From a virus: a stretch of DNA of 21,364 bases. The position numbers were made by a program, and so were the translations under genes. Position 1 is the first letter of the stretch. Each line of letters opens with the position of its first letter. The stretch lies in the IMG/VR virus record IMGVR_UViG_3300017740_000103, positions 1 to 21,364 of that record; one strand, given 5' to 3'. The notes beneath the pieces are model-generated. The model ran no database searches, was not told the DNA's origin, and saw only the letters and a list, made by a program, of their open reading frames with translations. Below are positions 1,917 to 21,364 of this stretch, piece by piece.

Positions 1917-4900
1917 TTAATAAGTTATATTACCCGTATTTACATCAATAAATTGTGGGGGTTTAAAACCAAAATTTTGAGATTGGGATTGAACATCTTT
2001 TTGAATATTAGATATATTATTAGATTCTTGTAAAGTTTCATTTACACCTGGGGTTGTTGAAAGGTTTGCATGTATGTGAGGGGGTTCGTGCCATATAATA
2101 CCTTTAAACCCAATTTCCCAAAGTGCATCTTGAATAGCTCTATTCCTTAACTTGTTAAAATCACTAGATGCAGGGCTTGCTTGTGCAATATCTAAAGCTA
2201 ACCCTCTTACATGAGTAGTGTTATAAGGTTGAACCTTTGCTCCTGAATCACTATAACCTCCTGAACCTGGAAGTGTGGATCCATGATGGAATGCATCATT
2301 ACCTGCAGTTATTGTTATAGGTAAATAAGGTTTGTATTTATCTTTTCCTAAGAGGTCATATAGGTTTAATAAAGCTACATATAATTCTTCATGAATATCA
2401 CCTCCATTTCCTAATTGATTTTCACTTCTTTGGGTATTTTTAAATCCCCCTTTTAATGCAATTCTTACATCAGAACTATTTTTTTCTAAAAATTGAGTAA
2501 ATTTAGTCGTATAAGAATTTGGATTTCCCTCACCAGGTTTTATTAAAAAATTATCAAATTCAATCTCTCCTTTAAAAAACCCTGGTTTATTTAATTCTTT
2601 TCCATAAATTTTTAAATAATTTTGTTTTACTTTTTCAGATTTAACAATTATAGGATATTTATTATCTCTCCAATTCCTTACTGAAGTACGATTAGGATAA
2701 GGGTTATCTGAAGGTACAATATTTGAACTTTCTTCAGCTATTAAATCAATATTGTAATTGAAATCTGGTAAATACACAGTTTTATTGGATAATTGAGAAG
2801 TAGCTAAAGTTGATAATTTAGTACTCCAACTATTATTATCTAAAGTATGAGATACTCCCCTAATTATAAAATCCATAGCATCTGGGTAATTATTAGGTAA
2901 AAATTTAGTATCAACATTTAATTTTTGATATATTTTAGGACCTGAAATTCCATCTAAACTAACATCTAAAGTAATAGGCAAAAAACCTTGAAGATTAGCA
3001 ATGGGTTTAGTACTATTAGAAGCAGCAGAAGCACTAGCAATTAAATATTGGTAAAAAGAAGTTCCTGTGGAAAGGTTTTCTTCAATTTGAAAAGGCATAA
3101 TTACACCTCCTCCATATTTTATAGTAGTAGTTGCTTCAGGGGGTGGTTTTCCTTCTATTATTATACGTTGTTGTCTGTCTTCTTCAGTTTCATTTTCTAC
3201 AGGGTTAGATAATACTTCATAAGCCCCACTATAATATTTTCTTGTTGAAAATTCAAAATTATTAAAAATCATAAAAGCATAATTTCTTTGAATTTCTTCA
3301 TTATCTTTTTTTAGCCTTTCAGCTAATTCAGCTTTTATTTTTTCATCATATTCAGCATCAACAATTTCTTCATAGTACCTATCTCTCATACCAAAATTCC
3401 ATTTTGAAAAAGCTGTTGATTCTTCTCCTACTACGTAACCATTAGCCGTAGCTCCTATAGATAACATAGTAGACATATCTTTTGTTACTTTAGTTGCTAT
3501 TTTTACATTATTTACAAAATTTGAATTATTAGAAGTACCATCATAACCATAAAGATTAAGAGTATAGGGTACTGTTTGGTTTGGGAGTGTATTACAATTC
3601 CATTGAAAATTCTTTACGTCTTCAAAAAATTTATATTTTTTAGGATCTTTAGCTCTTAAATATTGAGATATTTTTTCTAAATTAGGTACTGGGGTATCAT
3701 CATAAATTTTAATACAATTTGTAGTTTCATCTATAGAAGGGTGAAGATTATTAATTCCTCCAAAAATAACATTTAAGCGTGAACATATAGAATCTAAAAA
3801 ATCAAATAATATAAGATTATGTTTTTCATCAGTATTTGCAGAAATTTGATTAAAAATAAATTGATGAGATAAATAAATATTCATTATCTTACCATAAAAA
3901 GGTTCAGTATTTTGAAATTCTTCTAATCCCTCAAAAGTTTTAATATTAGAACCTATAGATTTAACATTTATATTAACTATAGCTTGTGTAGGATCTAATG
4001 AAATATGGTTAGGTAATGTGTACATAATATTAGAATCTATATCAGTATCTAATGTAAAAATAGGAGGGTTAGTTTTTTTGTCCCCACCATTATCTACTTT
4101 ATAAAGAATATTTTCTTTAATAAATTCTAAAAGTGTTCCAAACCTAATAAAATAACTATTATCAATAGGATTATACTTTTTAATAAAAACATGATCAGCT
4201 TTATCTGATGAAGATTTGTAAAGTTTTGTTGAATCCCAACCTGTTGATCTATTAATGATATTTCCTATAGTTTCAAGTTTCGTTTTTTTCTTAAAGGGAG
4301 TTGCAGCTATATATACATTATTTGATTTAGGTAGGGTTTTTTGGCTTTTTTCCTTTTTAATTAAATCAATAATTTGATCTTGTTCAGCTTGGATTTTTTG
4401 CTGTGCCTGTCTTAGTTTGTTATTATTCTTGCTAAGAATTTCTCTATCAAAATCTGAAGGGAATGGGACTCTATTTCTAGGTGATGTCCCTTGGGTTTGA
4501 ATAGCTTTAGTAGGTTCAAAAATTTCACTAGTTTTTGGACCTAAAGAAGTAAGAGAATATTCTTTACCATTAGTAAAAAAATTAATAGGTGTAAATCCAG
4601 CCTCAATATTTTGTTGTTGTGAACTACCTAATAAGTCAGTCCCCATACCCTCAATAGAGGCAAGTTTAATTTGGTTTCCTACATATTTTTCATCTTCTAT
4701 AAAACTATTAGTAAACCTATATAATTTAACTGTATAAATAACTCCTTTAAATTCTTCTGTAAAATCTGTAAGTTCTACTTCATTATAATTTGAAGATTTA
4801 TTTTTATAAGCATCTAAACTTCCTCCTAAATTATCAAATTCTTCTTGTGTAATTGGGGGATTTGTCTTATCATCAAATGTTGCAGTTAAATCAGGATCAT

Positions 4901-6212
4901 TTGGTACTAACTTATAATACAATGGAGGGACAGATGGGTCAAATGAAATTTTAGGAACATACCTATCTCCTGAGAGAACTTCAACAGCAATAAGATCTTC
5001 TAGTCTTTTTTGTTCATCTAATTTTAATTGTGCATTTATTGCATTTTGGATTTGGGGATCATTATCAACATTATCTATACCATAGTGAGGGCTACTTTGC
5101 AATGCATCATTTATTACAGCCGTTTGTTGTGATTGTACTCTAGCTGTTCTAGTTACCTCACTTTCTTGTGTAAATTTTAAGTAATTAAAAGATTGTATTT
5201 CTTTAAGATATTCATATATTTTATCTCTTTCTCTTTCTTGTTGTTGTAAAAAAGTTAATATATTTTCATCATTATAATCTAACTTAAATCTAGCAGCCAT
5301 GTGTTTTTGCTGGGCTTCATCTGCATTTTTATATTTTTGTAATAATCCTTGGGTATTTACTTGATTTAATTTTAAAGATTCTATAACATCTCCTAAACTG
5401 TATAAATTAATTACAATATCATAACTTCCATCAGGGTTAAAATCCCAACTAAAGTTAGTTATTCTCCCAAAAAAACCATCATAATTTCCACAATATTCTA
5501 ATCTTTTTTTCTCTATTTCAGGAAGTAAATCTCTATAAGATTTACCTACTAATTCTTCTGTAAAGAATTTCTCTTCTATTATAGTAGAACCTATATTTTG
5601 AACTTCTCCACTTTTATCTATATATAAATTATTTCCAAATTCTACAAGTAAAGTGTAACCTAATCTTAGGTATAAAACATCTAATATTGCTAATTGTTCT
5701 TTATTATAAGCCTTTATTTTTATTATTGCTTTTTTTAAAGAACCCATATTTAAAGCTTCAATATCCATACTAATAATACCAGGCATAGGTTGTAAACCAA
5801 ATTCTAATCCTCCCATACCATAAGCAGAATTATGTACAGATTTAGGGCTTTCATTTGAATTTATAATTCCAGACCTTTGTTTAAGAATATCACCACTATC
5901 TTTATTTAAACTTGAAACTCCATTAAATAAAACAAATTTTTTAGCTAAATCTTTTTTCAAAGCAATTTCGCCTACTAAATCTAAATTTTTTCTTCTTAGT
6001 TTAGCCATTGTTAAATCTCCATTTTCTCCAGTTTTAGCATCTAAAGAAACAGAAGAAGCAACTTTTATCCAGGCTGTTCTAGAATTTAAATAAGTAATTT
6101 CTTTTTCGGTTCTTAAAGTATTAGATTGAGCACCTGAACCATAAATTTTTTGTCTATCGTTTATTTGTCTTCTAACATAATCATTAAAACCTTCTCCTAT
6201 TAAATTAGCCAT
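1917..6212 (-). CDS. Baseplate hub protein with C-terminal M15-type peptidase domain (1431 aa)
   Basis: A very large structural protein placed where contractile-tail phages keep the hub/spike gene (T4 gp27/gp5 or XkdQ equivalents). The N-terminal part (about 134-290, containing GLEFGLQPMPGII, SLKKAIIKIKAYN and LYLRLGYTLLVEFGN) looks like a hub-type beta domain. A long middle region of about 900 residues includes charged helical stretches. The C-terminal part (about 1230-1390) has the signature of M15/VanY-like zinc peptidases: HVRGLALD gives HxxGxAxD with ligands His 1334 and Asp 1341, and WHEPPHIH gives the ExxH pair with Glu 1376 as likely catalytic acid and His 1379 as third ligand. M15 enzymes cut peptidoglycan peptide cross-links, so this domain probably opens the cell wall during tail penetration. 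A Gln/Asn-rich tail of about 45 residues follows. The gene starts three bases after the LysM gene. The hub assignment is inferred from position and general appearance; the peptidase motif is seen directly. Confidence 0.8.
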   Translation of the reverse strand: MANLIGEGFNDYVRRQINDRQKIYGSGAQSNTLRTEKEITYLNSRTAWIKVASSVSLDAKTGENGDLTMAKLRRKNLDLVGEIALKKDLAKKFVLFNGVSSLNKDSGDILKQRSGIINSNESPKSVHNSAYGMGGLEFGLQPMPGIISMDIEALNMGSLKKAIIKIKAYNKEQLAILDVLYLRLGYTLLVEFGNNLYIDKSGEVQNIGSTIIEEKFFTEELVGKSYRDLLPEIEKKRLEYCGNYDGFFGRITNFSWDFNPDGSYDIVINLYSLGDVIESLKLNQVNTQGLLQKYKNADEAQQKHMAARFKLDYNDENILTFLQQQERERDKIYEYLKEIQSFNYLKFTQESEVTRTARVQSQQTAVINDALQSSPHYGIDNVDNDPQIQNAINAQLKLDEQKRLEDLIAVEVLSGDRYVPKISFDPSVPPLYYKLVPNDPDLTATFDDKTNPPITQEEFDNLGGSLDAYKNKSSNYNEVELTDFTEEFKGVIYTVKLYRFTNSFIEDEKYVGNQIKLASIEGMGTDLLGSSQQQNIEAGFTPINFFTNGKEYSLTSLGPKTSEIFEPTKAIQTQGTSPRNRVPFPSDFDREILSKNNNKLRQAQQKIQAEQDQIIDLIKKEKSQKTLPKSNNVYIAATPFKKKTKLETIGNIINRSTGWDSTKLYKSSSDKADHVFIKKYNPIDNSYFIRFGTLLEFIKENILYKVDNGGDKKTNPPIFTLDTDIDSNIMYTLPNHISLDPTQAIVNINVKSIGSNIKTFEGLEEFQNTEPFYGKIMNIYLSHQFIFNQISANTDEKHNLILFDFLDSICSRLNVIFGGINNLHPSIDETTNCIKIYDDTPVPNLEKISQYLRAKDPKKYKFFEDVKNFQWNCNTLPNQTVPYTLNLYGYDGTSNNSNFVNNVKIATKVTKDMSTMLSIGATANGYVVGEESTAFSKWNFGMRDRYYEEIVDAEYDEKIKAELAERLKKDNEEIQRNYAFMIFNNFEFSTRKYYSGAYEVLSNPVENETEEDRQQRIIIEGKPPPEATTTIKYGGGVIMPFQIEENLSTGTSFYQYLIASASAASNSTKPIANLQGFLPITLDVSLDGISGPKIYQKLNVDTKFLPNNYPDAMDFIIRGVSHTLDNNSWSTKLSTLATSQLSNKTVYLPDFNYNIDLIAEESSNIVPSDNPYPNRTSVRNWRDNKYPIIVKSEKVKQNYLKIYGKELNKPGFFKGEIEFDNFLIKPGEGNPNSYTTKFTQFLEKNSSDVRIALKGGFKNTQRSENQLGNGGDIHEELYVALLNLYDLLGKDKYKPYLPITITAGNDAFHHGSTLPGSGGYSDSGAKVQPYNTTHVRGLALDIAQASPASSDFNKLRNRAIQDALWEIGFKGIIWHEPPHIHANLSTTPGVNETLQESNNISNIQKDVQSQSQNFGFKPPQFIDVNTGNITY

Positions 6213-8686: not shown

Positions 8687-11155
8687 TTAAGGAATATTCC
8701 TTCCACCTCCGGTGTTATTTATACCAGAATTACTAGTTAATAAATCCCCATCTATAGATACAGATCTAGCTCTTGCAATAGCTTCATATAGTTCTTGTGT
8801 TTGAGCCATTAATTGCTGGTTATTAGCTAAAAGTAATTCGTTTGTTTTCTTTTGTTCTTCTAAGTTTTTATCCCCATAATCTCCAAAAGTACCCGCAAAC
8901 ATATCTATAACTCCACCAATTAAAGGTCCTGCCAACATACTAATTCCTCCAGTAAGTGGAGCAAGTGCTAATCCCGCAGCTGTTCCAGCTGCTAATCCTT
9001 TATTTTGATCTAATGTTTTTAAGGCTGCATCTCCTCCTGATAAACTTTTATCATTAAAATTCTGATAAGCATCAAATCCTACTCCTGCTATAGCTAAAGG
9101 TGCTGCTATTCTTCCTAAACCTTTCATAGCTGTTCCTCCAAATTTAGCAAATCTACCAACATTAGACGCTGTTTTTACTGCAGTTGATCCTGTTCTAGAA
9201 GCAGCTTGTGCAGCCCTAAAACTTGATTCACTGGCAAATTTTCCACCAACTTTGAAAAATTGTTGTCCTGCTCTTGGTCCACTAGCAAATCTCCCTGTTT
9301 GAAATGCAGAACCTGCAGCACTAGCACTAGCACCTGCAGATTTACTCATTAAGCCAGTTAAACCTATCATTCCAGCTGTTGATTTAGCTATTCTTCCAGC
9401 AGTTGATACAGCACCCACACTTCCTAATGCCGTAGCTTGAAGGGCACCTTTCATTGCTCTATTAGGACCATCTCCTCCTGTGAAAAAATCTAATAAACTT
9501 TTCAATTTTTGTAAAATGGATAGCATTAAATCTATAAATTTTCCAGATATAGTATCAATTAAATCTTGCATTTGCTCTTGCATTGTTCTATTATTGGCTG
9601 CTTCTAACAATGCATCATTTCCTATTTTATCTTGAATTTGTTTTCTAGAAAAACCATCTTTTCTCATTTGTTGGATTATTTCTTGGACTCCTCCTATATC
9701 TTGAGCTCCTAACCTTTTAAATGTAGCTTGCTTAGCAAACATATCTCCCATTCCTGCAGCGGTCATACCTAAGGCTTTAGCTATAGAAGATTGTTGAATA
9801 GCGTTCATTCTTGAGAAACTACTTTGAGTAATACCCTGTTTACCAATTTCTTCGGTTACCCTTTGTATGTCATTATTTAAAGCAGCTAATCTAGCTCTTT
9901 CTAAATTAAGATCTTTACCTATTAATAATTCAGCTTCTAGTTCATTTGTAATAGATGATTCAAATTCTAATAAACTTGATGCTGTTTTTTCTATCTGTTG
10001 CATTGATAGCCCTAATTTTTGAGCTTGATAAACAGCACTAGCAAGATTTTTTCCTTGAGCTGCCATTGACATAGCTACATTAGAACTAATGTTAGCTATT
10101 TCTTGCATTACTACTTTTTCTGATACTGCAATATTGAATCTTTGATTATTAAATCTAACTAATCCTATTGTTGACTCAACTTGGTCTTTTAAATTAGAAC
10201 CTACAAGTATAGAGGTAGAATTTAATTTTGAACTAATAGCATCTGATATTCCTAAATTTTTGGTTAATATAGAAAAAGTACCAGCTGTTTCTGCCGAAAA
10301 AGTATTTTGAACTCCTGATAATTCTGTAAGTATTATTTGAGCTTCTCTTATTTTTACAAAAGTCATAAACATTCCTTGCAATGACTTAGCCTGGTCTTGG
10401 AATGATCTATTTAAGTTTCTTGCATTTTGGTTTGAAATTCCTAAATTAGCAGCCAGTGCTTTAGAAGATTTATCTATACCTACAATTCCATCTTTTAATA
10501 TTTTAATTGAAAAAATTGCAATTGTTTTTGCTAATAATTTAAAATATTCCGTAGAACCCGCTAATAAAGCTTCGAATGAATCATTAGTTTCAATTATGGT
10601 ATTTCTATATTTATCAGAAGCACTTACTAAATTACCTAATAACTTATTAATGACGGGAATATCTGATACTAAATCTGCCAAACCTTTAAAGGGATTAGAT
10701 TTTGCTATTTTATCAGATTTATCTAATATACCACTATAACCATCATTTATTTTTTCTAATCTTTCTTGAGCATCGTATAACCTTTTAACAACATTTTTAA
10801 TATTAGTTTCTTCTTGAGATCCTTGTTTTACTCTTAAAGCTAGTAGAGAATTAATTCTAGCATTAATAGATTGTTCAACACCTAAAAGTTTAGCTTGTTT
10901 TCTTTTAATTTTATCTATTTCTTTTTGAGATTTTAAATTCTCTGTAGAAGCTTTAGTTAAATCCTCCGCAAACTTTTGGGATTGTTTAACAGTTGCTGCA
11001 GCATTACCCATAGCAGATTCAAAATCCTTAGAACCCTTTGCAACCTGTCTAATAGTTTTTTCAATATCTACTAAATCACTTTGAAATTGAACAGATTCCT
11101 GATTTAATTTTTCAAAATCTCCTTTTAAGTTTCTAAAGTCTTTTCCTAATGCCAT
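8687..11155 (-). CDS. Tail tape measure protein (822 aa)
   Basis: The tape measure sets tail length and is threaded inside the tube. Recognition rests on its place directly after the chaperone genes and on composition. Residues 1-150 are highly charged helical coiled coil (FRNLKGDFEKLNQESVQF, KEIDKIKRKQAKLL). A long helical middle follows, then an Ala/Gly/Ser-rich stretch (about 570-690), then a hydrophobic Gly-rich segment at about 719-755 (LALAPLTGGISMLAGPLIGG) of the kind thought to insert into the host membrane. A short coiled coil (KKTNELLLANNQQLMAQTQ) ends the protein. T4 gp29 is about 590 residues. At the commonly used 0.15 nm per residue, 822 residues imply a tail near 120 nm. The start is supported by the TATTTATA motif 16 bases upstream; no Shine-Dalgarno is seen. 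Confidence 0.88.
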   Translation of the reverse strand: MALGKDFRNLKGDFEKLNQESVQFQSDLVDIEKTIRQVAKGSKDFESAMGNAAATVKQSQKFAEDLTKASTENLKSQKEIDKIKRKQAKLLGVEQSINARINSLLALRVKQGSQEETNIKNVVKRLYDAQERLEKINDGYSGILDKSDKIAKSNPFKGLADLVSDIPVINKLLGNLVSASDKYRNTIIETNDSFEALLAGSTEYFKLLAKTIAIFSIKILKDGIVGIDKSSKALAANLGISNQNARNLNRSFQDQAKSLQGMFMTFVKIREAQIILTELSGVQNTFSAETAGTFSILTKNLGISDAISSKLNSTSILVGSNLKDQVESTIGLVRFNNQRFNIAVSEKVVMQEIANISSNVAMSMAAQGKNLASAVYQAQKLGLSMQQIEKTASSLLEFESSITNELEAELLIGKDLNLERARLAALNNDIQRVTEEIGKQGITQSSFSRMNAIQQSSIAKALGMTAAGMGDMFAKQATFKRLGAQDIGGVQEIIQQMRKDGFSRKQIQDKIGNDALLEAANNRTMQEQMQDLIDTISGKFIDLMLSILQKLKSLLDFFTGGDGPNRAMKGALQATALGSVGAVSTAGRIAKSTAGMIGLTGLMSKSAGASASAAGSAFQTGRFASGPRAGQQFFKVGGKFASESSFRAAQAASRTGSTAVKTASNVGRFAKFGGTAMKGLGRIAAPLAIAGVGFDAYQNFNDKSLSGGDAALKTLDQNKGLAAGTAAGLALAPLTGGISMLAGPLIGGVIDMFAGTFGDYGDKNLEEQKKTNELLLANNQQLMAQTQELYEAIARARSVSIDGDLLTSNSGINNTGGGRNIP

Positions 11156-11192: not shown

Positions 11193-11534
11193 TTATTTAT
11201 ATGAAGTTCGCTTATTACTGTTAGAAGGAGGTTTGGTTGTTTCTTGAGCTTTTTTATTTTGTAAAAAATCTGGAATTTGAACCTGGTTAGATTCTGGGTT
11301 AGATTGTTTAGCTTTATTTTTCATTGAAGGATCAACCCAAGATTGTTCCTTTGCAGTTTTACCGGTAGCAGCAGCATGTTCTTTTTCATAATGGTTTGAA
11401 ATTCTACGTAATGTAAAATTTCTTAACCATATAGGCATATTATATACTGTGTTATAATCAAATCCTCCTTTACCATGAAAGACTATATCATGTATTGATT
11501 GGAAGAGTAATGTTCTATACTCAGGCGTCAGGCC
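11193..11534 (-). CDS. Frameshifted C-terminal extension of the tail assembly chaperone (GT-type, 113 codons)
   Basis: This frame overlaps the end of the upstream chaperone gene. The first ATG is at 11438 and would give 81 residues (MPIWLRNFTLRRISNHYEKE...). The same frame is open back to a TAG at 11550-11552, and the part before the ATG reads like protein: GLTPEYRTLLFQSIHDI, then VFHGKGGFDYNTVYN directly before MPIWLRNF. No ATG, GTG or TTG lies in that part. The simplest reading is that ribosomes shift +1 or -2 on the seven T at 11535-11541 and make a fusion of about 355 residues from 12261. Sheath, tube, chaperone, frameshifted extension, tape measure is the canonical order of G/GT chaperone pairs in long-tailed phages. 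The C-terminal 50 residues are hydrophilic (Lys/Gln/Ser/Asn). Alternatives are a separate gene from 11438 or a homopolymer sequencing error. Confidence 0.75.
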   Translation of the reverse strand, partial: GLTPEYRTLLFQSIHDIVFHGKGGFDYNTVYNMPIWLRNFTLRRISNHYEKEHAAATGKTAKEQSWVDPSMKNKAKQSNPESNQVQIPDFLQNKKAQETTKPPSNSNKRTSYK

Positions 11535-12261
11535 AAAAAAAGTTAAGACCTATAGGAAGGTCTACTACCTCCTCTCCTCCACCTTCTGTATCTAGGTAAA
11601 CTTTCATGTCTACATCCGGTGATATTTTAGAATAATAATTTCTAAGCTCTCTAGCATCTTTAGCTAATAAATACCCTTTAACAAATTCTCTAATGTCTTT
11701 TTTTTCTTCACTACCATTAATTGAAGTAATTATGTGGGCTAATCTAGTTGTTACTTCATGAGCCCCTTGCTTATCTATCTTTTTTAATCCTTTTATTTCA
11801 GCATCTATTTTTTTATCATCACCATGTGTTAGTAACTTAAATGTTATTTGATTTTCTGTGTTGGGTAAAGTAAATGAAAAGTTATTTTCTCCTGATTGAA
11901 ATAATTTTTCATCTATTTCTTTATTTTGCATAATAGATAAATTAATATTTTGAGATTGTCCATCCCAAATAAATTCATAATCTTTACCATAAGATAAAAT
12001 ACGAGCAGCTACCATTATAGCATTTTTATCCCCTATTAATAAATCATTATAATTAATATCTTTATTAACTATTAAAGATTGTAATAATTTATCTATTACT
12101 ACACCTTTTTGAATGTAATTTTGATTAGTTAAAATATCCTCTTCCTTTGCGGTCATATATTTCATTTCTATTTTACCAGATGATAGAGGGTTTTCTTTAG
12201 GATATAATAATCCTTTTGAGGGTAATTCTACTTCTTCAGTAGGTAACTTAAATTCGGCCAT
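11521..12261 (-). CDS. Tail assembly chaperone, T4 gp26/PF12322-like (246 aa)
   Basis: The N-terminal pattern (FKLPTEEVELPSKGLLYP, then KIEMKYMTAKEEDILTN and GVVIDKLLQSLIV) resembles the T4 baseplate protein family that includes gp26, a factor needed for hub assembly but probably not a lasting virion part. Lying between the tube and tape measure genes, it occupies the place of the G chaperone, which binds the tape measure before the tube forms around it. The middle has GDKNAIMVAARILSYG and YEFIWDGQ, and the C-terminus is acidic (TEGGGEEVVDLP) before ending LNFFWPDA. The two Phe codons lie in a run of seven T, giving a likely shift into a 113-codon extension. A strong terminator and a TATTTATA motif precede the gene, so it may have its own transcription start. 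Confidence 0.75.
   Translation of the reverse strand: MAEFKLPTEEVELPSKGLLYPKENPLSSGKIEMKYMTAKEEDILTNQNYIQKGVVIDKLLQSLIVNKDINYNDLLIGDKNAIMVAARILSYGKDYEFIWDGQSQNINLSIMQNKEIDEKLFQSGENNFSFTLPNTENQITFKLLTHGDDKKIDAEIKGLKKIDKQGAHEVTTRLAHIITSINGSEEKKDIREFVKGYLLAKDARELRNYYSKISPDVDMKVYLDTEGGGEEVVDLPIGLNFFWPDA
11535..11541 (-). promoter_or_regulatory. Probable programmed frameshift site (AAC TTT TTT TGG)
   Basis: In the zero frame the coding strand reads CTT AAC TTT TTT TGG CCT GAC GCC TGA. Moving +1, or -2, on the T run keeps perfect Phe pairing in the P site and enters the frame GGC CTG ACG CCT GAG, which continues for 113 codons. A -1 shift would read TTG GCC TGA and stop at once. A 5-base-pair stem (AGACC and GGTCT, 11546-11563) ends four bases upstream. 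A purine stretch GGAGGAGAGGAGG (11568-11580) lies 26 bases upstream. Whether either stimulates shifting is unknown. Confidence 0.65.
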
Positions 12262-12361: not shown

Positions 12362-12850
12362 TTAGAAATTTAATACACAATAATCTACTGCTAACGTTAC
12401 TTCTATTTGTTTTGCTTCGTTTTCAGTGTCCCAGTTGTAATCTCCAAATGTTGCTTCTTTAACAAAAGCGCCTTTTAGTATCCATTCAGAAACTATATCA
12501 CCTACTGGACCTAATACGTCTAATCTTAGATCTTTCTTATAGAAATCAGAATAACCATCTCTACCTGTTACAGATTCGTGATGTAGTCTTACCCACTCCA
12601 TTACTGCTTGAGCACCTGAAGGTGTAATTGGGTCGAATAATGTCATTGTGATATCATTCCAAGTAGTTTTACCTTTTACTTTTCTTTGAATGTTTATGTG
12701 GTTTAATATTACTTCACCTTGTGTTAGTGATACTGCACTTACCCCTTTTACTATAAAGCTTGGTATGCCATCCATGTATAGGATAAACCTATTAGCTTGT
12801 TTTGGCTCAAAAGCGGTAAAAAATATTTCATTTGGATCTATTACTGGCAT
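12362..12850 (-). CDS. Tail tube protein, T4 gp19-like (162 aa)
   Basis: This is the subunit of the inner tail tube through which DNA passes. The length (162) matches T4 gp19 (163). Typical features are an early FEPKQANRFILYMDGIPSF stretch, KGVSAVSLTQGEVILNHI, the segment KTTWNDITMTLFDPI, AVMEWVRLHHES and a C-terminal TLAVDYCVLNF strand. It follows the sheath gene and precedes a strong terminator, as expected for a highly expressed major structural gene. A TATTTATA motif lies 15 bases upstream of the ATG, and no Shine-Dalgarno sequence is seen. Confidence 0.93.
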   Translation of the reverse strand: MPVIDPNEIFFTAFEPKQANRFILYMDGIPSFIVKGVSAVSLTQGEVILNHINIQRKVKGKTTWNDITMTLFDPITPSGAQAVMEWVRLHHESVTGRDGYSDFYKKDLRLDVLGPVGDIVSEWILKGAFVKEATFGDYNWDTENEAKQIEVTLAVDYCVLNF

Positions 12851-12889: not shown

Positions 12890-14977
12890 TTATGATGGAA
12901 ATACTGCTCCAGTTGGTAATACATTGAAATCTAGGTATATAAATTCAGCTGTTTTGGTTGGCTGTAAATATATTTGCCCAATTAATTGATTTCTATCTAT
13001 AACATCTGGTGTGTTATTACTATCATCCATTACTACTTTAAAGGCATATAATCCTTGTCTTTGTTGTACGCTTTCTAAGTATGGGTTAACTTGTGCTAAG
13101 AAATTATTTCTTGTAGCTATTGTATTTTGTTCGAATACTAAATTATCTGCTATTTGAGAAATAAATCCTTTTAAAGCAATTAATAATCTCCTTACATTTA
13201 CTCTATCTAAAGCACTAGCTTTTTTCTGTAATGTTTTCTGACCAAATACTACTACTCCTGTGTTTGGGAATGTAGCTATTGGGTTGATGTTTGCTTGGTA
13301 TAGTTCATCTCTATTACCATTAGTTAATTTTCTTTCAGCTCTTATTACTGATGATAATCCACCTCTATTTAATCCTGCAGGTGCAAACCATGCTTCTGAA
13401 ACTGAATCGTTATAAGCAAATACTCCTGGCATCATTGCTGAAGCTGGTACCCAAACTTGATCTCCTAAATCAGGATCAATTGTTTGTAACCAAGGCCAAT
13501 ACATAGCAGCATATGAGGAATCAACTCCTGCAGCTTGTGTTTTTGCCGCTGTTATTGATTTGTCATAAGCAACACCATCTATTACTGCTATTGAATCACC
13601 TCTAAATTGACAATTATTAACCATTGATGAAATTTGAGATGCATAATCTTCTCTATATAATCCAGGGATTGAAAGAACATTATATTGGAATTCGTCTTTA
13701 TTTGCTAATAAATTTAATGCTGTAGTATAGTTACTTCCTATTAAACCTTGAGTGTTAGTAGCATTAATATTTTGGTTAAAATTAGCACTTATATTATTAA
13801 AATCAATACCTAAAGCAGCTCCAAACGAACCTGAACCAGCTACAGGAATAGAGCTAGTATATTGAGATTTTGGGTCTCCAGCATTGTCAAAATAATTTAA
13901 TGTTTTAGAATTTACTGATTTTACTCTTACATATCTAGAAGCATTAGCATATAGTCCTTCCATTTGTAAATAATAAGTAGTACCATCAGTTTTTACTGAT
14001 TGTTTTTGGTCTCCTATTACTCTTGATACATAATTTGAAGCATTTGGATCTAAGGATAAGTTAGTCCAAGTTTCTAGTACTTTTTTCTGGCTAGTAATAT
14101 CATCTCCTTGTCTAATTAAAAGACTAAATGTACCTGAGGATGTATCTGGGGATATTACTTCCCATCTAACATTATCTTTAGTACCACTAGCTAATTGTCC
14201 TCTAGAACCTTCTGTTGAAGTATTGTTTTGTATTGCTCCTACAGCTAATGTTTCTAATTCTAAAGTTGAATTAAAGGTTGAAGCTGTTCCTCCAGCTAAA
14301 GTAGCTATTGTTACACCATTTCCTTGAAGTAAAGCATTTTGTGAACCAGATTTAACAGTTGAACCATTAAATAAGATTCCAGCAACTGAAGCTGTTATAG
14401 ATAATGCTGCTCCACCATCTTCATTTATAATAATTTCATTAGTTCCTGAAGATCCAATTATTTCATTTACTTTACCTACAAATCCAGCTTGTGAACCTGT
14501 ATAATAATACAAGTCAGCTCCTGGAAGATTGTAACTAAAAGAAGAAGAAATAAACATTGGATTTGTTGTTGGAGTATTTATATTTAATCCATAATTTACA
14601 GCAGGAACTAAATAATTAAATGATGCTGCTGCTTTTGCTCCTGCTACCGCTGTATCAGAGTTTTCAATTTTAGAACTAGTAGCACTAGTATAAGAACCAC
14701 TAACTACTCTAGTTACTAGTAATGAATCTCCTCCTTGTTGAAAATAATTGTATGCAGATACAGAAGTAAAGTAAGTATATTCATTACTACCACTTTCTAC
14801 AACTGTACCAAATCTATTTTGGTAATCTGAGTAAGATGTTACTATTGTTGGGATATTAACTGGACCTTTTACGGTAGGACCCACTATAGCACAACCAGCT
14901 TCTATTGGTTGTGAGGATACTTGTGAAGAGTCATTTTCTCTTGCTAATACACCTGGGGATAAAAGTACTTCTGCCAT
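12890..14977 (-). CDS. Contractile tail sheath protein, T4 gp18-like (695 aa)
   Basis: This major structural protein forms the contractile sheath around the tube. It begins MAEVLLSPGVLARENDSSQV, the start typical of phage sheath proteins, followed by AIVGPTVKGPVNIPTIVTS and NRFGTVVE. The C-terminal part carries the conserved sheath core: ALDRVNVRRLLIALKGFI, FEQNTIATRNNFLAQVNPYL, AFKVVMDDSNNTPDVIDRN and GQIYLQPTKTAEFIYLDFNV. The length is close to T4 gp18 (659). The middle (about 140-400) is a Ser/Thr/Gly-rich insertion, as in other variable, surface-exposed sheath domains. It shows that the virion is a myovirus. The tube gene follows 39 bases downstream. Confidence 0.95.
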   Translation of the reverse strand: MAEVLLSPGVLARENDSSQVSSQPIEAGCAIVGPTVKGPVNIPTIVTSYSDYQNRFGTVVESGSNEYTYFTSVSAYNYFQQGGDSLLVTRVVSGSYTSATSSKIENSDTAVAGAKAAASFNYLVPAVNYGLNINTPTTNPMFISSSFSYNLPGADLYYYTGSQAGFVGKVNEIIGSSGTNEIIINEDGGAALSITASVAGILFNGSTVKSGSQNALLQGNGVTIATLAGGTASTFNSTLELETLAVGAIQNNTSTEGSRGQLASGTKDNVRWEVISPDTSSGTFSLLIRQGDDITSQKKVLETWTNLSLDPNASNYVSRVIGDQKQSVKTDGTTYYLQMEGLYANASRYVRVKSVNSKTLNYFDNAGDPKSQYTSSIPVAGSGSFGAALGIDFNNISANFNQNINATNTQGLIGSNYTTALNLLANKDEFQYNVLSIPGLYREDYASQISSMVNNCQFRGDSIAVIDGVAYDKSITAAKTQAAGVDSSYAAMYWPWLQTIDPDLGDQVWVPASAMMPGVFAYNDSVSEAWFAPAGLNRGGLSSVIRAERKLTNGNRDELYQANINPIATFPNTGVVVFGQKTLQKKASALDRVNVRRLLIALKGFISQIADNLVFEQNTIATRNNFLAQVNPYLESVQQRQGLYAFKVVMDDSNNTPDVIDRNQLIGQIYLQPTKTAEFIYLDFNVLPTGAVFPS

Positions 14978-15780: not shown

Positions 15781-17265
15781 TTAAGAATAAATCCAAATAT
15801 CCTCCAAATTACTTGCTACATAAATATTACCTTTTCTGTTGTAAGTACTATCAATAGCTGCAATGCCTGAGGCACTATTAACATTATCTTGTCCTTTTAA
15901 TACAGCTGCCATATAAGCATCTGGATCAAAATTACCAGTTGAACTTGGGTTAAAGTTGGTTTTAATACCCCATCTTTGACCACCAATTGCTGATGCAGCT
16001 GCATCTGCCCAACCGAATAATTCACCATTAGGACCATCTTGTAGTACTACTATACCACCAGAATCATTAGCAGCTCCTGCTGAACCTGAGTTCATTGAGA
16101 TGTATTGATCCGCTACGTTTAAGTTTGTAGCGTTTTTAAATGAAGCAGTTCCTGCTACACTTAAATCACCTGAAACTGTTAAGTTTGAAAATTCAACATC
16201 ATCACTAGTTCCTAATCCAACAGCTACTGCTGATAATGCTCCTGCATTTACTGTAAAATCAATACCAGTTTGGCCTGAAGTATCTGTTACAGAAGAAATG
16301 AATGCACTTGGGAACGAACCTGATAATACTGTTGAACCAGCTAATATCTGAGTCTGTGTTACTACTCCTGTCTGACCTGCCACACTTGTTACTGGTGCTG
16401 TAGGGAAAGAACCTGAAAGAACAGTTGAACCAGCTAATATATTTGCTTGTGAAACTGAACCACCTAAGTTTACTGAGTTACCTGCAATGGTCATTCCTTC
16501 ATTTGCTAATTGAGCATTGGTAATAGTATCGTTGCTAATTTGGCCAGCGATAGTATCCGCTGTAATTGATCCTCCTAATGCTACTGTTTGTCCTGCAATA
16601 GTCATTGAATTAGATCCTGAATATGCTCCTGATCCTGCAAATATTTGAGTCTGTGTTACTACTCCTGTTTGACCTGCTACACTTGTTACTGGTGCTGTAG
16701 GGAAAGAACCTGAAAGAACAGTTGAACCAGCTAATATTTGAGTCTGTGTTACTACTCCTGTCTGACCTGCTACACTTGTTACTGGTGCAGATGGGAATGA
16801 TCCAGAAAGAACAGTCGAACCAGCTAATATATTTGCTTGTGAAACTGATCCACCTAAGTTTACTGAGTTACCTGCAATGGTCATTCCTTCATTCGCTAAC
16901 TGAGCGTTAGTAATAGTGTCATTACTGATTTGACCTGCAATAGTATCGGCTGTAATTGAACCACCTAATGCTACTGTGCTACCCGCAATAGTCATTGAAT
17001 CTGAGCCTGATAGTGCTCCTGATCCTGCAAATATTTGGGTTTGCGTTACTACTCCCGTTTGACCTGCTACACTTGTTACAGGTGCAGATGGGAAGGAACC
17101 TGAAAGAACAGTCGAACCAGCTAATATCTGAGTCGTTGTTACAGTTCCTGTTTGACCTGATACACTTTGTACTGGTGCACCCGCCGAAGTTATGTAGTTG
17201 GTGGTACTGTTATCTAACTGAGCTAACGAACTACCTGATACAACTACTTTTTTCCATGTTGCCAT
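15781..17265 (-). CDS. Repeat-rich tail fibre or adhesin-like protein (494 aa)
   Basis: A Ser/Gly/Thr/Val-rich structural protein. Residues 1-45 form a unique start (MATWKKVVVSGSSLAQLDNS). Residues 47-176 and 177-306 are two near-identical 130-residue repeats built from shorter beta units (FPSAPVTSVAGQTGVVTQTQ, then SITADTIAGQISNDTITNAQ). A third partial unit leads into the C-terminal domain (about 330-494). That domain contains LTVSGDLSVAGTASFKNATN, GGIVVLQDGPNGELFGW and GGQRWGIKTNFNPS, which I associate with phage fibre or decoration proteins. Such proteins usually bind cell surfaces or form fibres; the exact place on the particle is unknown. A TATTTATA motif lies 104 bases upstream and a terminator follows. 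Confidence 0.8.
   Translation of the reverse strand: MATWKKVVVSGSSLAQLDNSTTNYITSAGAPVQSVSGQTGTVTTTQILAGSTVLSGSFPSAPVTSVAGQTGVVTQTQIFAGSGALSGSDSMTIAGSTVALGGSITADTIAGQISNDTITNAQLANEGMTIAGNSVNLGGSVSQANILAGSTVLSGSFPSAPVTSVAGQTGVVTQTQILAGSTVLSGSFPTAPVTSVAGQTGVVTQTQIFAGSGAYSGSNSMTIAGQTVALGGSITADTIAGQISNDTITNAQLANEGMTIAGNSVNLGGSVSQANILAGSTVLSGSFPTAPVTSVAGQTGVVTQTQILAGSTVLSGSFPSAFISSVTDTSGQTGIDFTVNAGALSAVAVGLGTSDDVEFSNLTVSGDLSVAGTASFKNATNLNVADQYISMNSGSAGAANDSGGIVVLQDGPNGELFGWADAAASAIGGQRWGIKTNFNPSSTGNFDPDAYMAAVLKGQDNVNSASGIAAIDSTYNRKGNIYVASNLEDIWIYS
16348..17127 (-). repeat. Two tandem 390-bp coding repeats in the fibre gene
   Basis: The first copy is 16738-17127 and the second 16348-16737, with a period of exactly 130 codons. 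The encoded repeats differ at only a few residues (for example SGALSGSDS versus SGAYSGSNS). The DNA differs at many third codon positions, for example in the stretch encoding ISNDTITNAQ. Confidence 0.85.
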
Positions 17266-18088: not shown

Positions 18089-21000
18089 TTAGGTTGGTAC
18101 AGAACCACTTGCTGCGTTTGCAGGTATCATTCTCATATAAATATTACCATCAGTTGAATTAAATCGATCTGTTGTTGCTATCATATACCAGTTTGTATAC
18201 CCATTTACTGCAGTGCCTAATGTTAAGTTTAATACTTGGGTTTCTTTAATATCATTATCTAACCCTCCAGTTGAATTTTGGAATGAATTTTCTACAGAAA
18301 CAAAATTTACAAATTGTCCTGAAGTAGAGTTACCTGAATTTGGATCACTTGTTGTAAAACTTGTAGGTAATTCAGTCATATTTCCACCATTAGGTATAAA
18401 TACTATTACTCTTTGGAATCCACTTGTACCTGCTCCAAGGTTACTTCCTGATATTAAATTGTCAGGTGTAGTTCCTGTATCATCTAATCTTCTTACTGAT
18501 TGATAAGGACCTCCATATGAAAAATTAATAGAAGCATCTCCTAAAGTATCAGAGTTTACAACACTATCTAAAAGTCCATAAGTAGTAGCTACTGTTGGAA
18601 CTGGAGGTGTTGCACCACTTCTAGAAGATATACCAAAAGCAAAATCAAAATCAGCATTTAAGTCCATAGTATAAACATATCCTGTGTCTGCTGCAGCTGG
18701 TGCTGCTATAGTAATTGATATTGGTTGAGTAGTTGATTTTCCGTAAGCATCAGTACCTACACCATTTAAACTGTAAGATCCAGTTTGTAATGAACTAGCT
18801 CCTACATTTAAATTCCAAGTTCTTGAAGAACCTGCACCTGGATTAGGCCCTAGAGTAAAGCTACCTGCATCTGTTCCTGATAAGGTTAAACTTTCAATAT
18901 TTTCTCCTTGTGAATCTGAAACATTTATTGTTCCTATTGTTGTTCCTGGGGATTGAGAACCTGTAAATCCACCCGCTCCTAAACTAAATGCTACACTTGG
19001 GGCAAGATTTTCTGATACTTCTATAGTATAAGATTGTCTATTTTCTGTTCCAAATGTGTTTGAAGCTGTTACACTAAAATTAATAAGATCACCGTCTGTA
19101 TATGATCCACTAATGTCTGAAGCTGCAAATATTTGTTGAGTTCCATTAAAATCAAGTACGCTTGAAGGGCTATTAATAGTCCATGTTACTGTTTCATTTT
19201 GAACACTATATGTACTTGTATTTCTAGCTACTGTTCCAGTGTATCCATTAGTATTAGTATAAGCAAAATCATTTGTTTCTGCTGATTCTATTATATAAGC
19301 TCTTGTACTCCAATTTTTATTTATAGAAGGAGCTGTATCATCATCTATGTCTATATCAATTAATGCTGTGTCAGTTCCTGGATCATATTGATCTCTAACT
19401 GTTACTTGGTAAACATATTTATTTATTAAATCTGAATTAACAAATACACCATTTTTTCTAGTAATATATCCTGCTGATGTTATTTCAAAAGCATCTTCTG
19501 TTGGATCCGATTGACCTCCACCTGTATATGTTCCTATAGGAACGTTTACACCATCTATTGATAAAGATTGTAGTGTAAAATTTGAATAAGTAATTACATC
19601 TCCTACATCATTACCATCTGCTGAAAGTTGTCCTACATTTCTGTACTCACCACTTACTAAACCTTGACCATTATTAACATTAACATTTTCATTAATATCA
19701 AATTGTTGATCATTGATGGTTGGGGTAGCATTATCTAATACTCTAATTTGATAAGGTAAATAAGTTATAGATGTTGGGTCTTGTCCACTTTGATAATGTT
19801 CATCACTTGCTGTTAAAACAAACTCATATTTTGGGTTTGTATCATAATCTAGTGAAGATGTAGTTTGTGTTAAAACTACATTAGTAGCATTAATTGTTAA
19901 AGTAAAAGCATTATTAAATGCTGTAGATAAGGATCCTGTTTGTATTGTGATTGTATCACTATTTATATCTGTGAAATAAACGGTGCCATTTGATTTAGCT
20001 CCTGCAGCTGAACTTTCTGATAATGAAGCTGTAAAGTTTGTGGATAATACATTACCTCCTATACTAGTTTCTCTAAAAACAGGTGCTGTATTACCTGCTA
20101 TTCTAATATATAAATTTTTATCTACTGTAGCTCCATTTATATCAGTACCTCTAACTGGGAATAATACTGCATCATATCCCTGTGAGTTATCATTTTCTAA
20201 GGATTCTGTTAATAAAGTTGTTTGAACTGATATTACACCATTACTAGCTACTCTAAAATCATCAGTTGTGTATGAACTTTGAGTTTGGAATGTTACTACA
20301 CCTTCTGGATCTGTATATGCTATAGTACCTACTGTAGTACTTTGAGCTGAATATTCATCTACATCAAATACTAAAGAATCAATTACAGGAGGAGTATTTG
20401 CAAAATATGCTTGTTCTAAGAAATCTACTACATTATTAGTTCCATAATTTTCACCATATATCCCTGTAGGTTGATATTGATTTGAAATAGCTCTATTACC
20501 ATCAAATACCATAAAAGATGAAGTAACAGAATATGAAGCACTTGTTACAGATCCTGATAATATTCCTGTTCCACCTAAATTAGATATTGTTTGAGCTGAA
20601 CTTGAAACTGTTCCTGATGGAACTGAAACTGATCCTGATAAAATTCCTGTACCATCTAAGTTAGCAATTGTTTGTGCTGATGATGATACTGTTCCTGAGG
20701 GTACTGATGTTGATCCTGAAAGTATTCCTGTACCATCTAGATTAGCAATTGTTTGAACTGAGCTAGAAACAATACCTGAAGGTAATTGTGAAGATCCCGA
20801 AATAATTCCTGTAGGTAACTGTGAAGATCCTGAAATTACACCTGAAGGTAAACCTGCTATTATTTGTGCAGATGATGATACTGTTCCTGATGGGATAGAT
20901 GCTCCTGAACCAGTATTTAAAATAATAATTTTACCACCCATAGCTGGATGTGAAGTACATTGATAGTATAAAACATCTGGAGTATCAAATTGTACATTCC

Positions 21001-21364
21001 ATAATAAGGTTCCATTTGAAACATTATTATTTGTTACACCATCATTATAAGCAGTACCTGCTGAACCTGTAATGGTAGATTGTATTCTAAATGGGTGAGC
21101 ACCCATATTATTAGTAAACTTATATTGTTGGCCTCTAATTAAATATATTATTGGATCATTTTCAGCTCCAGTTAAACCTGGCCCTGTAAACGTATAATCT
21201 GAAGAACCATTTGCTCCTAAAGTCCATTCAGATGTATAAGTAGCTATTATTGCAACATCAGCAACTGATGAACTTGCTACAGACATTGAACTTGTTTCAG
21301 TTTGATTTATATATCCTAATCCTGCTATTTGTGCTGATGATGATACTGTTCCTGATGATACAGA
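18089..21364 (-). CDS. Large fibre/adhesin-like protein with cupredoxin-like and cadherin-like domains, 5' end beyond the window
   Basis: The frame has no stop before the right edge, so the gene is cut at its 5' end. An internal Met at 21286 is not the start, since SVSSGTVSSSAQIAGLGYI precedes it in frame. Numbering from that Met, residues 20-125 look like a cupredoxin domain (YLIRGQQYKFTNN, GAHPFRIQ, YYQCTSHPAMGGKI). His 64, Cys 110, His 113 and Met 116 match type-1 copper ligands. Residues 132-250 are Ser/Gly-rich tandem repeats. About 295-860 holds roughly five cadherin-like beta domains (for example NTPPVIDSLVFDVDEYSA, TVGTIAYTDPEG, ATPTINDQQFDINENV). The last 200 residues are unique and may be a distal binding tip. 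A role in host attachment is inferred. A smaller fibre-like gene follows 21 bases downstream. Confidence 0.8.
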   Translation of the reverse strand, partial: SVSSGTVSSSAQIAGLGYINQTETSSMSVASSSVADVAIIATYTSEWTLGANGSSDYTFTGPGLTGAENDPIIYLIRGQQYKFTNNMGAHPFRIQSTITGSAGTAYNDGVTNNNVSNGTLLWNVQFDTPDVLYYQCTSHPAMGGKIIILNTGSGASIPSGTVSSSAQIIAGLPSGVISGSSQLPTGIISGSSQLPSGIVSSSVQTIANLDGTGILSGSTSVPSGTVSSSAQTIANLDGTGILSGSVSVPSGTVSSSAQTISNLGGTGILSGSVTSASYSVTSSFMVFDGNRAISNQYQPTGIYGENYGTNNVVDFLEQAYFANTPPVIDSLVFDVDEYSAQSTTVGTIAYTDPEGVVTFQTQSSYTTDDFRVASNGVISVQTTLLTESLENDNSQGYDAVLFPVRGTDINGATVDKNLYIRIAGNTAPVFRETSIGGNVLSTNFTASLSESSAAGAKSNGTVYFTDINSDTITIQTGSLSTAFNNAFTLTINATNVVLTQTTSSLDYDTNPKYEFVLTASDEHYQSGQDPTSITYLPYQIRVLDNATPTINDQQFDINENVNVNNGQGLVSGEYRNVGQLSADGNDVGDVITYSNFTLQSLSIDGVNVPIGTYTGGGQSDPTEDAFEITSAGYITRKNGVFVNSDLINKYVYQVTVRDQYDPGTDTALIDIDIDDDTAPSINKNWSTRAYIIESAETNDFAYTNTNGYTGTVARNTSTYSVQNETVTWTINSPSSVLDFNGTQQIFAASDISGSYTDGDLINFSVTASNTFGTENRQSYTIEVSENLAPSVAFSLGAGGFTGSQSPGTTIGTINVSDSQGENIESLTLSGTDAGSFTLGPNPGAGSSRTWNLNVGASSLQTGSYSLNGVGTDAYGKSTTQPISITIAAPAAADTGYVYTMDLNADFDFAFGISSRSGATPPVPTVATTYGLLDSVVNSDTLGDASINFSYGGPYQSVRRLDDTGTTPDNLISGSNLGAGTSGFQRVIVFIPNGGNMTELPTSFTTSDPNSGNSTSGQFVNFVSVENSFQNSTGGLDNDIKETQVLNLTLGTAVNGYTNWYMIATTDRFNSTDGNIYMRMIPANAASGSVPT
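20540..20782 (-). repeat. Three tandem 81-bp (27-residue) Ser/Gly-rich repeats
   Basis: Units begin at PSG[TI]VSSS[AV]QTI and run through L[DG]GTGILSGS, with starts 27 codons apart (coding strand 20782, 20701, 20620). Shorter 11-residue units of the type LPSGVISGSSQ precede them (about 20783-20851). Further SGTVSSSAQI copies lie at about 20870-20895 and at the right edge (about 21325-21364), so the array probably continues outside the window. Confidence 0.8.

Follow-up and report, generated by a model that had tools for sequence, protein, structure and literature searches.

The stretch of viral DNA analysed here (the window) is 21,364 nt long, and the structural genes that could be assigned to families are all encoded on its minus strand. 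The genes and sequence elements that concern us are the following:

12890–14977, minus strand: tail sheath protein (family matches).
12362–12850, minus strand: tail tube protein, gp19-like (phrog_4542, 5e-20; PF06841, 1.5e-4, under the cut-off of that family).
11521–12261, minus strand: G-like gene of the T4 gp26/gp51 family (TAC-N), 246 aa, ATG start, with PF12322 and phrog_150 matches and an AlphaFold model.
11542–11544, minus strand: AAC codon preceding the T run.
11535–11541, minus strand: run of seven T's, present likewise in two other assemblies (L001 and L002).
11527–11541, minus strand: candidate shift site TTTTTTTGGCCTGAC, with the slip on TTT-T in the P site.
11193–11534, minus strand: T-like extension (TAC-C) in the +1 frame, 113 codons and a stop.
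11193–12261, minus strand: predicted GT-like fusion (TAC-NC), 355 aa if one T is skipped.
8687–11155, minus strand: probable tape measure protein, 822 aa, assigned by position and by the annotation of phage immuto.

Along the minus strand the order is sheath, tube, G/T pair and 822-aa ORF. The same order is annotated in phage immuto, where the gene at the position of the 822-aa ORF is called tape measure. The pair lies directly before the tape measure gene (assigned by position) and near the tube gene, as in G/GT systems, which supports the location between tube and tape measure given in the original prediction. The region is best explained as the locus for the tail assembly chaperones of a phage of the T4 superfamily that has sheath and tube genes. 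Scanning the whole window for Rfam families and tRNAs gave no match.

The zero frame of the 246-codon gene ends AAC TTT TTT TGG CCT GAC GCC TGA, and the T run at 11541–11535 has exactly seven T's. The second frame (offset +1/−2) is open from 11549, after a stop at 11552–11550, to the stop at 11195–11193; between GGC at 11534 and position 11196 lie 113 codons. No ATG, GTG or TTG occurs in this extension before the ATG at 11438, which has 32 codons upstream of it. A slip on the first or the second TTT codon leads to the same product, and the −1 frame reaches a stop at 11530. Re-reading of the sequence therefore bore out the coordinates and codons of the original prediction, including a 32-codon stretch devoid of start codons and the early termination that would follow a −1 slip. 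The seven T's are identical in the two other assemblies, which have one mismatch to the window in 1161 nt. By itself the run is not special, since the window (31% GC) contains 20 runs of at least seven A or T.

Near the shift site no consistent RNA fold was found (mean z −0.67 downstream, 60 sequences). A prfB-type frameshift uses CUU U before a stop codon plus an SD-like element at close upstream spacing; here the site reads TTT TTT TGG, and 54 of 65 sequences have no SD-like 4-mer in the 20 nt upstream. With no consistent signal of either kind, a stimulatory RNA structure or SD-like element was rejected as part of the site. The window has a purine run, GGAGGAGAGGAGG, at about 11568–11580 (minus strand); it precedes the shift site by some 27–39 nt, more than the usual SD effect would allow.

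The G part matches PF12322 (4.9e-6) and phrog_150 (9.4e-12), in agreement with the gp26-like identity proposed earlier, which places it in the T4 gp26/gp51 family; the short product would therefore be a chaperone of the lambda G type and the fusion one of the GT type. T4 gp26 and gp51 themselves match PF12322 at 8.8e-64 and 3.9e-52 (the gp51 match ends at residue 201 of 249). The G proteins of immuto and Mel-JY01 match phrog_150 but give no PF12322 match at E 1. The fusion, read across the junction, matches phrog_150 with residues 4–275 (profile positions 10–264); on the same profile T4 gp26 ends at 235 and gp51 at 280.

The 113-aa extension alone had no match in Pfam or PHROG. Among the 27 members of alignment A1, eight have a hit to phrog_32580 ‘tail assembly chaperone’, the best at E 0.0052, and one has a hit to phrog_634 (0.065); these hits are too weak to use. 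Comparison with T domains of tail chaperones, suggested in the original prediction as a check, was fruitful at the level of profiles: the window T matched the T of SP-15/LIS04/GXN1 at 80%, the latter matched the cyanophage T at 81%, the cyanophage T matched the gp51 C-terminus at 96% and the window T matched the cyanophage T at 39%. In each of these four comparisons 0 of 60 column shuffles scored equally high. Direct comparison with the gp51 C-terminus gave 0.5% for the window T and 0.6% for the SP-15-type T, with 8 of 60 shuffles as high in both cases. The link of the window T domain to the gp51 C-terminus thus appears to go via intermediates. The T domain of phage RM378 had no profile match to that of the window, so RM378 is included below on its site and frame alone.

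The AlphaFold model of G has a mean pLDDT of 93.2; the model of T shows three confident helices (residues 4–57) followed by a low-confidence tail. Searched against viral predicted structures, the G model gave good matches, such as an SP-15 hub subunit (TM 0.82), and Foldseek against the PDB gave only E-values of 1.0 and above. With VIA-align against the PDB, 4 of 992 chains scored Z 2 or more. The two highest were YqbN (3klu), of a tail chaperone family, at Z 5.7 over 88 residues (rmsd 4.2), and the HK97 tail assembly chaperone (2ob9) at Z 4.8 over 76 residues (rmsd 3.2). Both are under 8, where a score may reflect only a common arrangement; the resemblance of the modelled G fold to solved tail chaperones is a hint. 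A PDB sequence search with G returned a single match, to an outer surface protein (E 0.052), which we attribute to chance, and the same search with T4 gp51 returned none. A structural relative of the 246-residue G protein in BFVD, A0A8S5RZL9 (Myoviridae sp. ctNQV2), has 430 residues and is possibly a fused or differently extended gene.

A search of IMG/VR with the extension gave 49 loci, and from a search with the gene the best 80 of 593 loci were taken. Among the matches listed, 128 loci and the window match both parts; one locus (L104) matches the first part only, with no T match. Alignment of these relatives, another check proposed with the original prediction, showed both frames retained at offset 1 in all distinct rows listed. 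The same layout is present in Flavobacterium phage immuto, Microcystis phage Mel-JY01, an uncultured 484-kb phage (LR756508), Listeria phage LIS04, Streptococcus phage GXN1, Rhodothermus phage RM378 and Bacillus phage SP-15 (L159).

After addition of further scans and of the named phages, site codons were read in 156 records (L104 included), 132 of them distinct. The slippery site is kept in the overlap of the frames: 128 records have TTT TTT TGG, 14 have TTC TTT TGG and five have TTT CTT TGG. The other nine are TTT CTA (twice) and single cases of TTT CTT TAC, TTT TTT CAC, TTT TTT CGT, TTT TTT AGT, TTC TTT CGT, TTC TTG TAT and TTC CTT TGG. Counts out of 130 given below refer to the distinct records minus two (L150 and L154), with T homology examined in part of them; all site and frame counts concern related sequences, not independent events.

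The two records set apart, L150 (1968–2708) and L154 (1869–2705), encode the T domain downstream in a separate third-frame ORF that starts at its own ATG. Neither has TTT-Y at the two site codons, and both nest inside the +1 rows of the tree described below. Since L154 retains CTT-T, where a slip could be weak, the correspondence between site and layout is good but imperfect.

A scan for TTTCTTTGGCCTGAC found at least 120 loci, and 93 of the 120 matches listed are the chaperone shift site. A rule by which TTT occupies at least one of the two codons at each +1 site was dropped, as it fails in nine of the 120 loci listed, which read TTC CTT TGG; in these the T domain stays at +1 via CTT or via TTT CG[CA], which all nine carry just upstream. 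A divergent group (L381, L386, L413, L433, L434, L465, L468, L479 and L485) reads AAC TTT CG[CA] TTC CTT TGG CCT GA, giving two candidate +1 slips a few codons apart. GTDB genomes contributed 11 loci. Nine of them have T7 or T8 with a T-like domain at +1 (judged by eye) and a base other than T before the run, and one runs off its contig. The locus in an Aquificaceae MAG (L504) has GAG TTT TTT CTG and a +1 frame; at 2501 to about 3330 of this locus the T-like frame lies almost wholly within an extended first frame.

Selection on the second frame was assessed by dN/dS over 250 pairs with 72–98.5% G identity. The ratio is 0.162 from the slip to the window's first ATG, close to the 0.156 of the G gene, and 0.296 in the rest of the extension. 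The start-less stretch thus appears to be coding, as had been supposed from its appearance. An ungapped test on the 60 nt past the G stop gave pN/pS of 0.44 in the T frame versus 1.34 and 1.11 in the other two frames. Judged by these substitution patterns, the second frame is translated and under purifying selection, and it is so at a fixed offset. When the second codon of the site encodes Phe, it is TTT in 122 of 122 cases, although TTC makes up 18% at other places in these genes.

Just ahead of the run, T is found in only one of 100 distinct T7 sites (L023); a T at this position would create a −1 heptamer. AAY and AGY codons before the T7 run end in C 80 times and in T never, and elsewhere in these genes in C 584 times and in T 1729 times. 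The C of the AAC codon may thus keep the window's site from being a −1 heptamer. Avoidance of −1 is not the whole reason, because the TTT CTT class, unable to pair in −1 tandem, prefers C before the site too (40 C, 8 T, above background); T before the site, seen in 9 of 88, is commoner here than among T7 sites (Fisher p 0.007).

By far the best reading of the locus, and one in which we place considerable confidence, is a programmed frameshift that makes TAC-NC, with +1 as the preferred direction. Family, gene order, conserved offset, conserved site and purifying selection on the second frame, all obtained by sequence comparison, make a G/GT-type chaperone pair with two frames joined by frameshifting, as originally proposed, the most likely arrangement. 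Most ribosomes would read 12261–11521 and produce the short chaperone TAC-N of the lambda gpG type. A minority would pause with Phe-tRNA on TTT in the P site; the tRNA would slip forward by one base (UUU to UUU), one T would be skipped and 113 more codons would be read to give TAC-NC, of the same type as lambda gpGT. If the parts act as they do in lambda, the N part would serve to bind tape measure protein and the C part to recruit tube protein.

The same fusion, with identical final frame, could come from a −2 shift in which Phe-tRNA on the second TTT moves back two bases. Re-pairing of the P-site tRNA was scored as good if the first two bases were identical and the third was identical or a T/C exchange. 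At the window's own site and in the whole T7 class both +1 and −2 re-pairing are possible, and a −2 shift is in use in phage Mu according to the accessible text of a 2016 review (PMC5009743). The original prediction had offered the two directions side by side, and they are not equal: +1 re-pairing is good in 130 of 130 distinct records, −2 re-pairing in 108. Among the 22 exceptions, six are TTT CTT sites weakened by a first-position G-U pair and 16 fail outright (TTC TTT TGG, TTT CTA and TTC TTT CGT); all 22 keep a good +1 slip. The relatives, by these pairing scores, favour +1, and a Mu-type shift, the pairing for which is not kept throughout them, is improbable.

Still less probable is a second frame that is a separate gene, read from an internal start or by re-initiation at the G stop. 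Separate starts of the T domain do occur in L150 and L154, and the immuto and Mel-JY01 records annotate a separate small ORF. Downstream of the slip, an ATG, GTG or TTG comes no later than 45 nt after the G stop in 37 of 130 records, and a T-frame start codon upstream of the slip in 62 of 130. However, the 32 codons ahead of the first start codon in the window are under purifying selection, and in 45 of 130 records no such start is found ahead of the slip, nor in the sequence up to 45 nt beyond the G stop. RNA polymerase slippage on the T run, yielding some mRNA with six T's and fused frames, would suit the seven T's found in most records, but the run is broken as TTTCTTT in 93 of the 120 matches listed and as TTCTTTT in 14 of 156 records; we give this mechanism next to no weight. 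Equally little is given to gene decay or an error in sequencing. The window comes from a single contig and homopolymers are error-prone, yet two more assemblies have the identical run, the isolates immuto and Mel-JY01 share the layout and the second frame is under selection, so that an error or decay is largely contradicted.

Frameshifting to +1, the preferred reading, is not the only arrangement in this family. For cyanophage-type gp26 the best 80 of 598 loci (L174–L253) were taken, 78 of them distinct and complete. All 78 genes end with T_TTT_TTC, one codon and a stop; the −1 frame is open through the gp26 end, begins FFR or nearly so and carries the ‘gp51’ T domain. Since that frame is open in 78 of 78 loci, the annotated short gp51 of cyanophages may be a truncated TAC-NC. 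A poly-T end with an open −1 frame was found in S-SM2, ACG-2014h, S-SSM4, P-SSM3, BUCT-ZZ01, KVP40, phiM12, Cr30, Milchi and Atu_ph07. An ATG is near the stop in most of the 78 loci, and it overlaps or abuts the stop in KVP40, phiM12 and Cr30; independent T starts are therefore possible in these −1 phages. Cyanophage gp51 was described in 2010 as ∼20% of the non-cyanophage length with a similar C-terminus (PMC3037559, in the text available); the word ‘frameshift’ is absent from the available main text of that paper.

In a tree of 46 rows, 12 of 13 −1 rows and four T4-type rows are split from all +1 rows (100/100). Atu_ph07 (−1) and LR756511 are long branches that join the +1 side at its base. 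LR756511 (L137), an uncultured 595-kb phage, has a gp26-like protein with GFFF encoded by poly-T near its end (around 4682), where the −1 frame is open; judged by eye, this is perhaps a −1 site.

Taken jointly, these data incline us slightly towards a switch of shift direction within one homologous family, with the base before the T run as the switch and with a new +1 motif. The shift would be −1 in cyanophages and their kin, and +1 in a group with the window, immuto, Mel-JY01, RM378, SP-15 and GXN1 among its members; it would have been abandoned for a separate T ORF in L150 and L154 or for two full genes in T4. A T before the run would make the −1 heptamer and any other base would forbid −1. 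The +1 motif would mostly be TTT-YTT-TGG or TTC-TTT-TGG; the tRNA that slips would usually be Phe-tRNA, and the pause would probably occur at the next codon. A homologous gene pair that has both shift directions, along with natural losses, offers a comparative test of how direction is controlled.

The T4 genes resemble the window pair in being short and long forms of one protein family (PF12322, phrog_150); they differ in that the T4 forms come from separate genes (26 and 51) lying on opposite strands, and the window has one gene with a proposed shift. Vladimirov, Gautam and Davidson (Virology, 2022) are said to have identified genes 26 and 51 as the short and long tail chaperones of T4, and reportedly frameshifting is retained in several T4-like groups, T4 itself using the two genes. 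The available text of the PRFect paper (PMC10274946) describes, after Vladimirov et al., some T4-like phages with a short gene and a longer fused gene, and that of the phage Adele paper (PMC12846349) cites the same work for poly-T −1 signals in T4-like TAC-N genes. Inclusion of T4-type chaperones in the G/GT scheme, which the original prediction had presented as a novelty, is thus supported by the family matches, and the claim to novelty was dropped, as the link appears from these texts to have been published in 2022. The cyanophage −1 sites may also be in print already. The literature searched, the full text of Vladimirov et al. (2022) aside, held no account of a +1 shift in the gp26 family; the +1 direction, its site and its spread are apparently what is new here.

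Cyanophages, KVP40, phiM12 and Cr30 share with the window a gp26 gene followed by a T domain in another frame with a poly-T site. They differ in using the −1 frame at T_TTT_TTC or a similar heptamer, often with an ATG near, whereas the window has the +1 frame and a base other than T before the run. Lambda G/GT and the scheme of long-tailed phages likewise have the pair before the tape measure gene and two products with a common N part; the lambda shift, unlike the +1 proposed for the window, is −1. The 2016 review (PMC5009743), in its accessible text, calls G-T frameshifting widely conserved ‘except T4’, with −1, −2 or +1 depending on the phage, and names the archaeal phage HSTV-2 as very likely +1. 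A conserved poly-T GTTTTT site ends TAC-N in phage Adele (Vandenendeviridae / Andersonviridae), as here, but its direction is −1 (PMC12846349, available text).

Among known +1 sites, UUU_CGU of the PA-X type (from a title cited in PMC5009743) has a counterpart in the TTT CGT of GXN1 and L160, and for CUU_U of prfB (PMC10274946, available text) CTT T is available in the TTT CTT class. The window family differs from both in having no A-site stop, no consistent SD-like element and TGG as the usual next codon. According to the available text of the PRFect paper (PMC10274946), a general motif for forward frameshifts has yet to be identified; such sites are poorly defined.

A +1 shift would explain why phages such as immuto, whose site reads AGC TTT CTT TGG, are annotated with a truncated second chaperone domain. 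For the T domain (L131:4707–4949) the immuto record shows a hypothetical protein of 36 aa that begins at a late ATG (4839), and ∼44 T-frame residues ahead of this ATG are unannotated.

Three further minus-strand proteins of the window deserve mention. A 494-aa protein (15781–17265) has repeats around SVAGQTGVVTQTQILAGSTVLSGSFP, and a 1431-aa protein (1917–6212) has the C-terminus HHGSTLPGSGGYSD...HVRGLALDI...WHEPPHIH, which presumably resembles a metallopeptidase; neither has a Pfam match at 0.01. A 1065-aa protein (18089–21286), with a cadherin-like domain (PF00028, 2.8e-8) and serine/glycine-rich repeats, is probably a tail fibre or adhesin.
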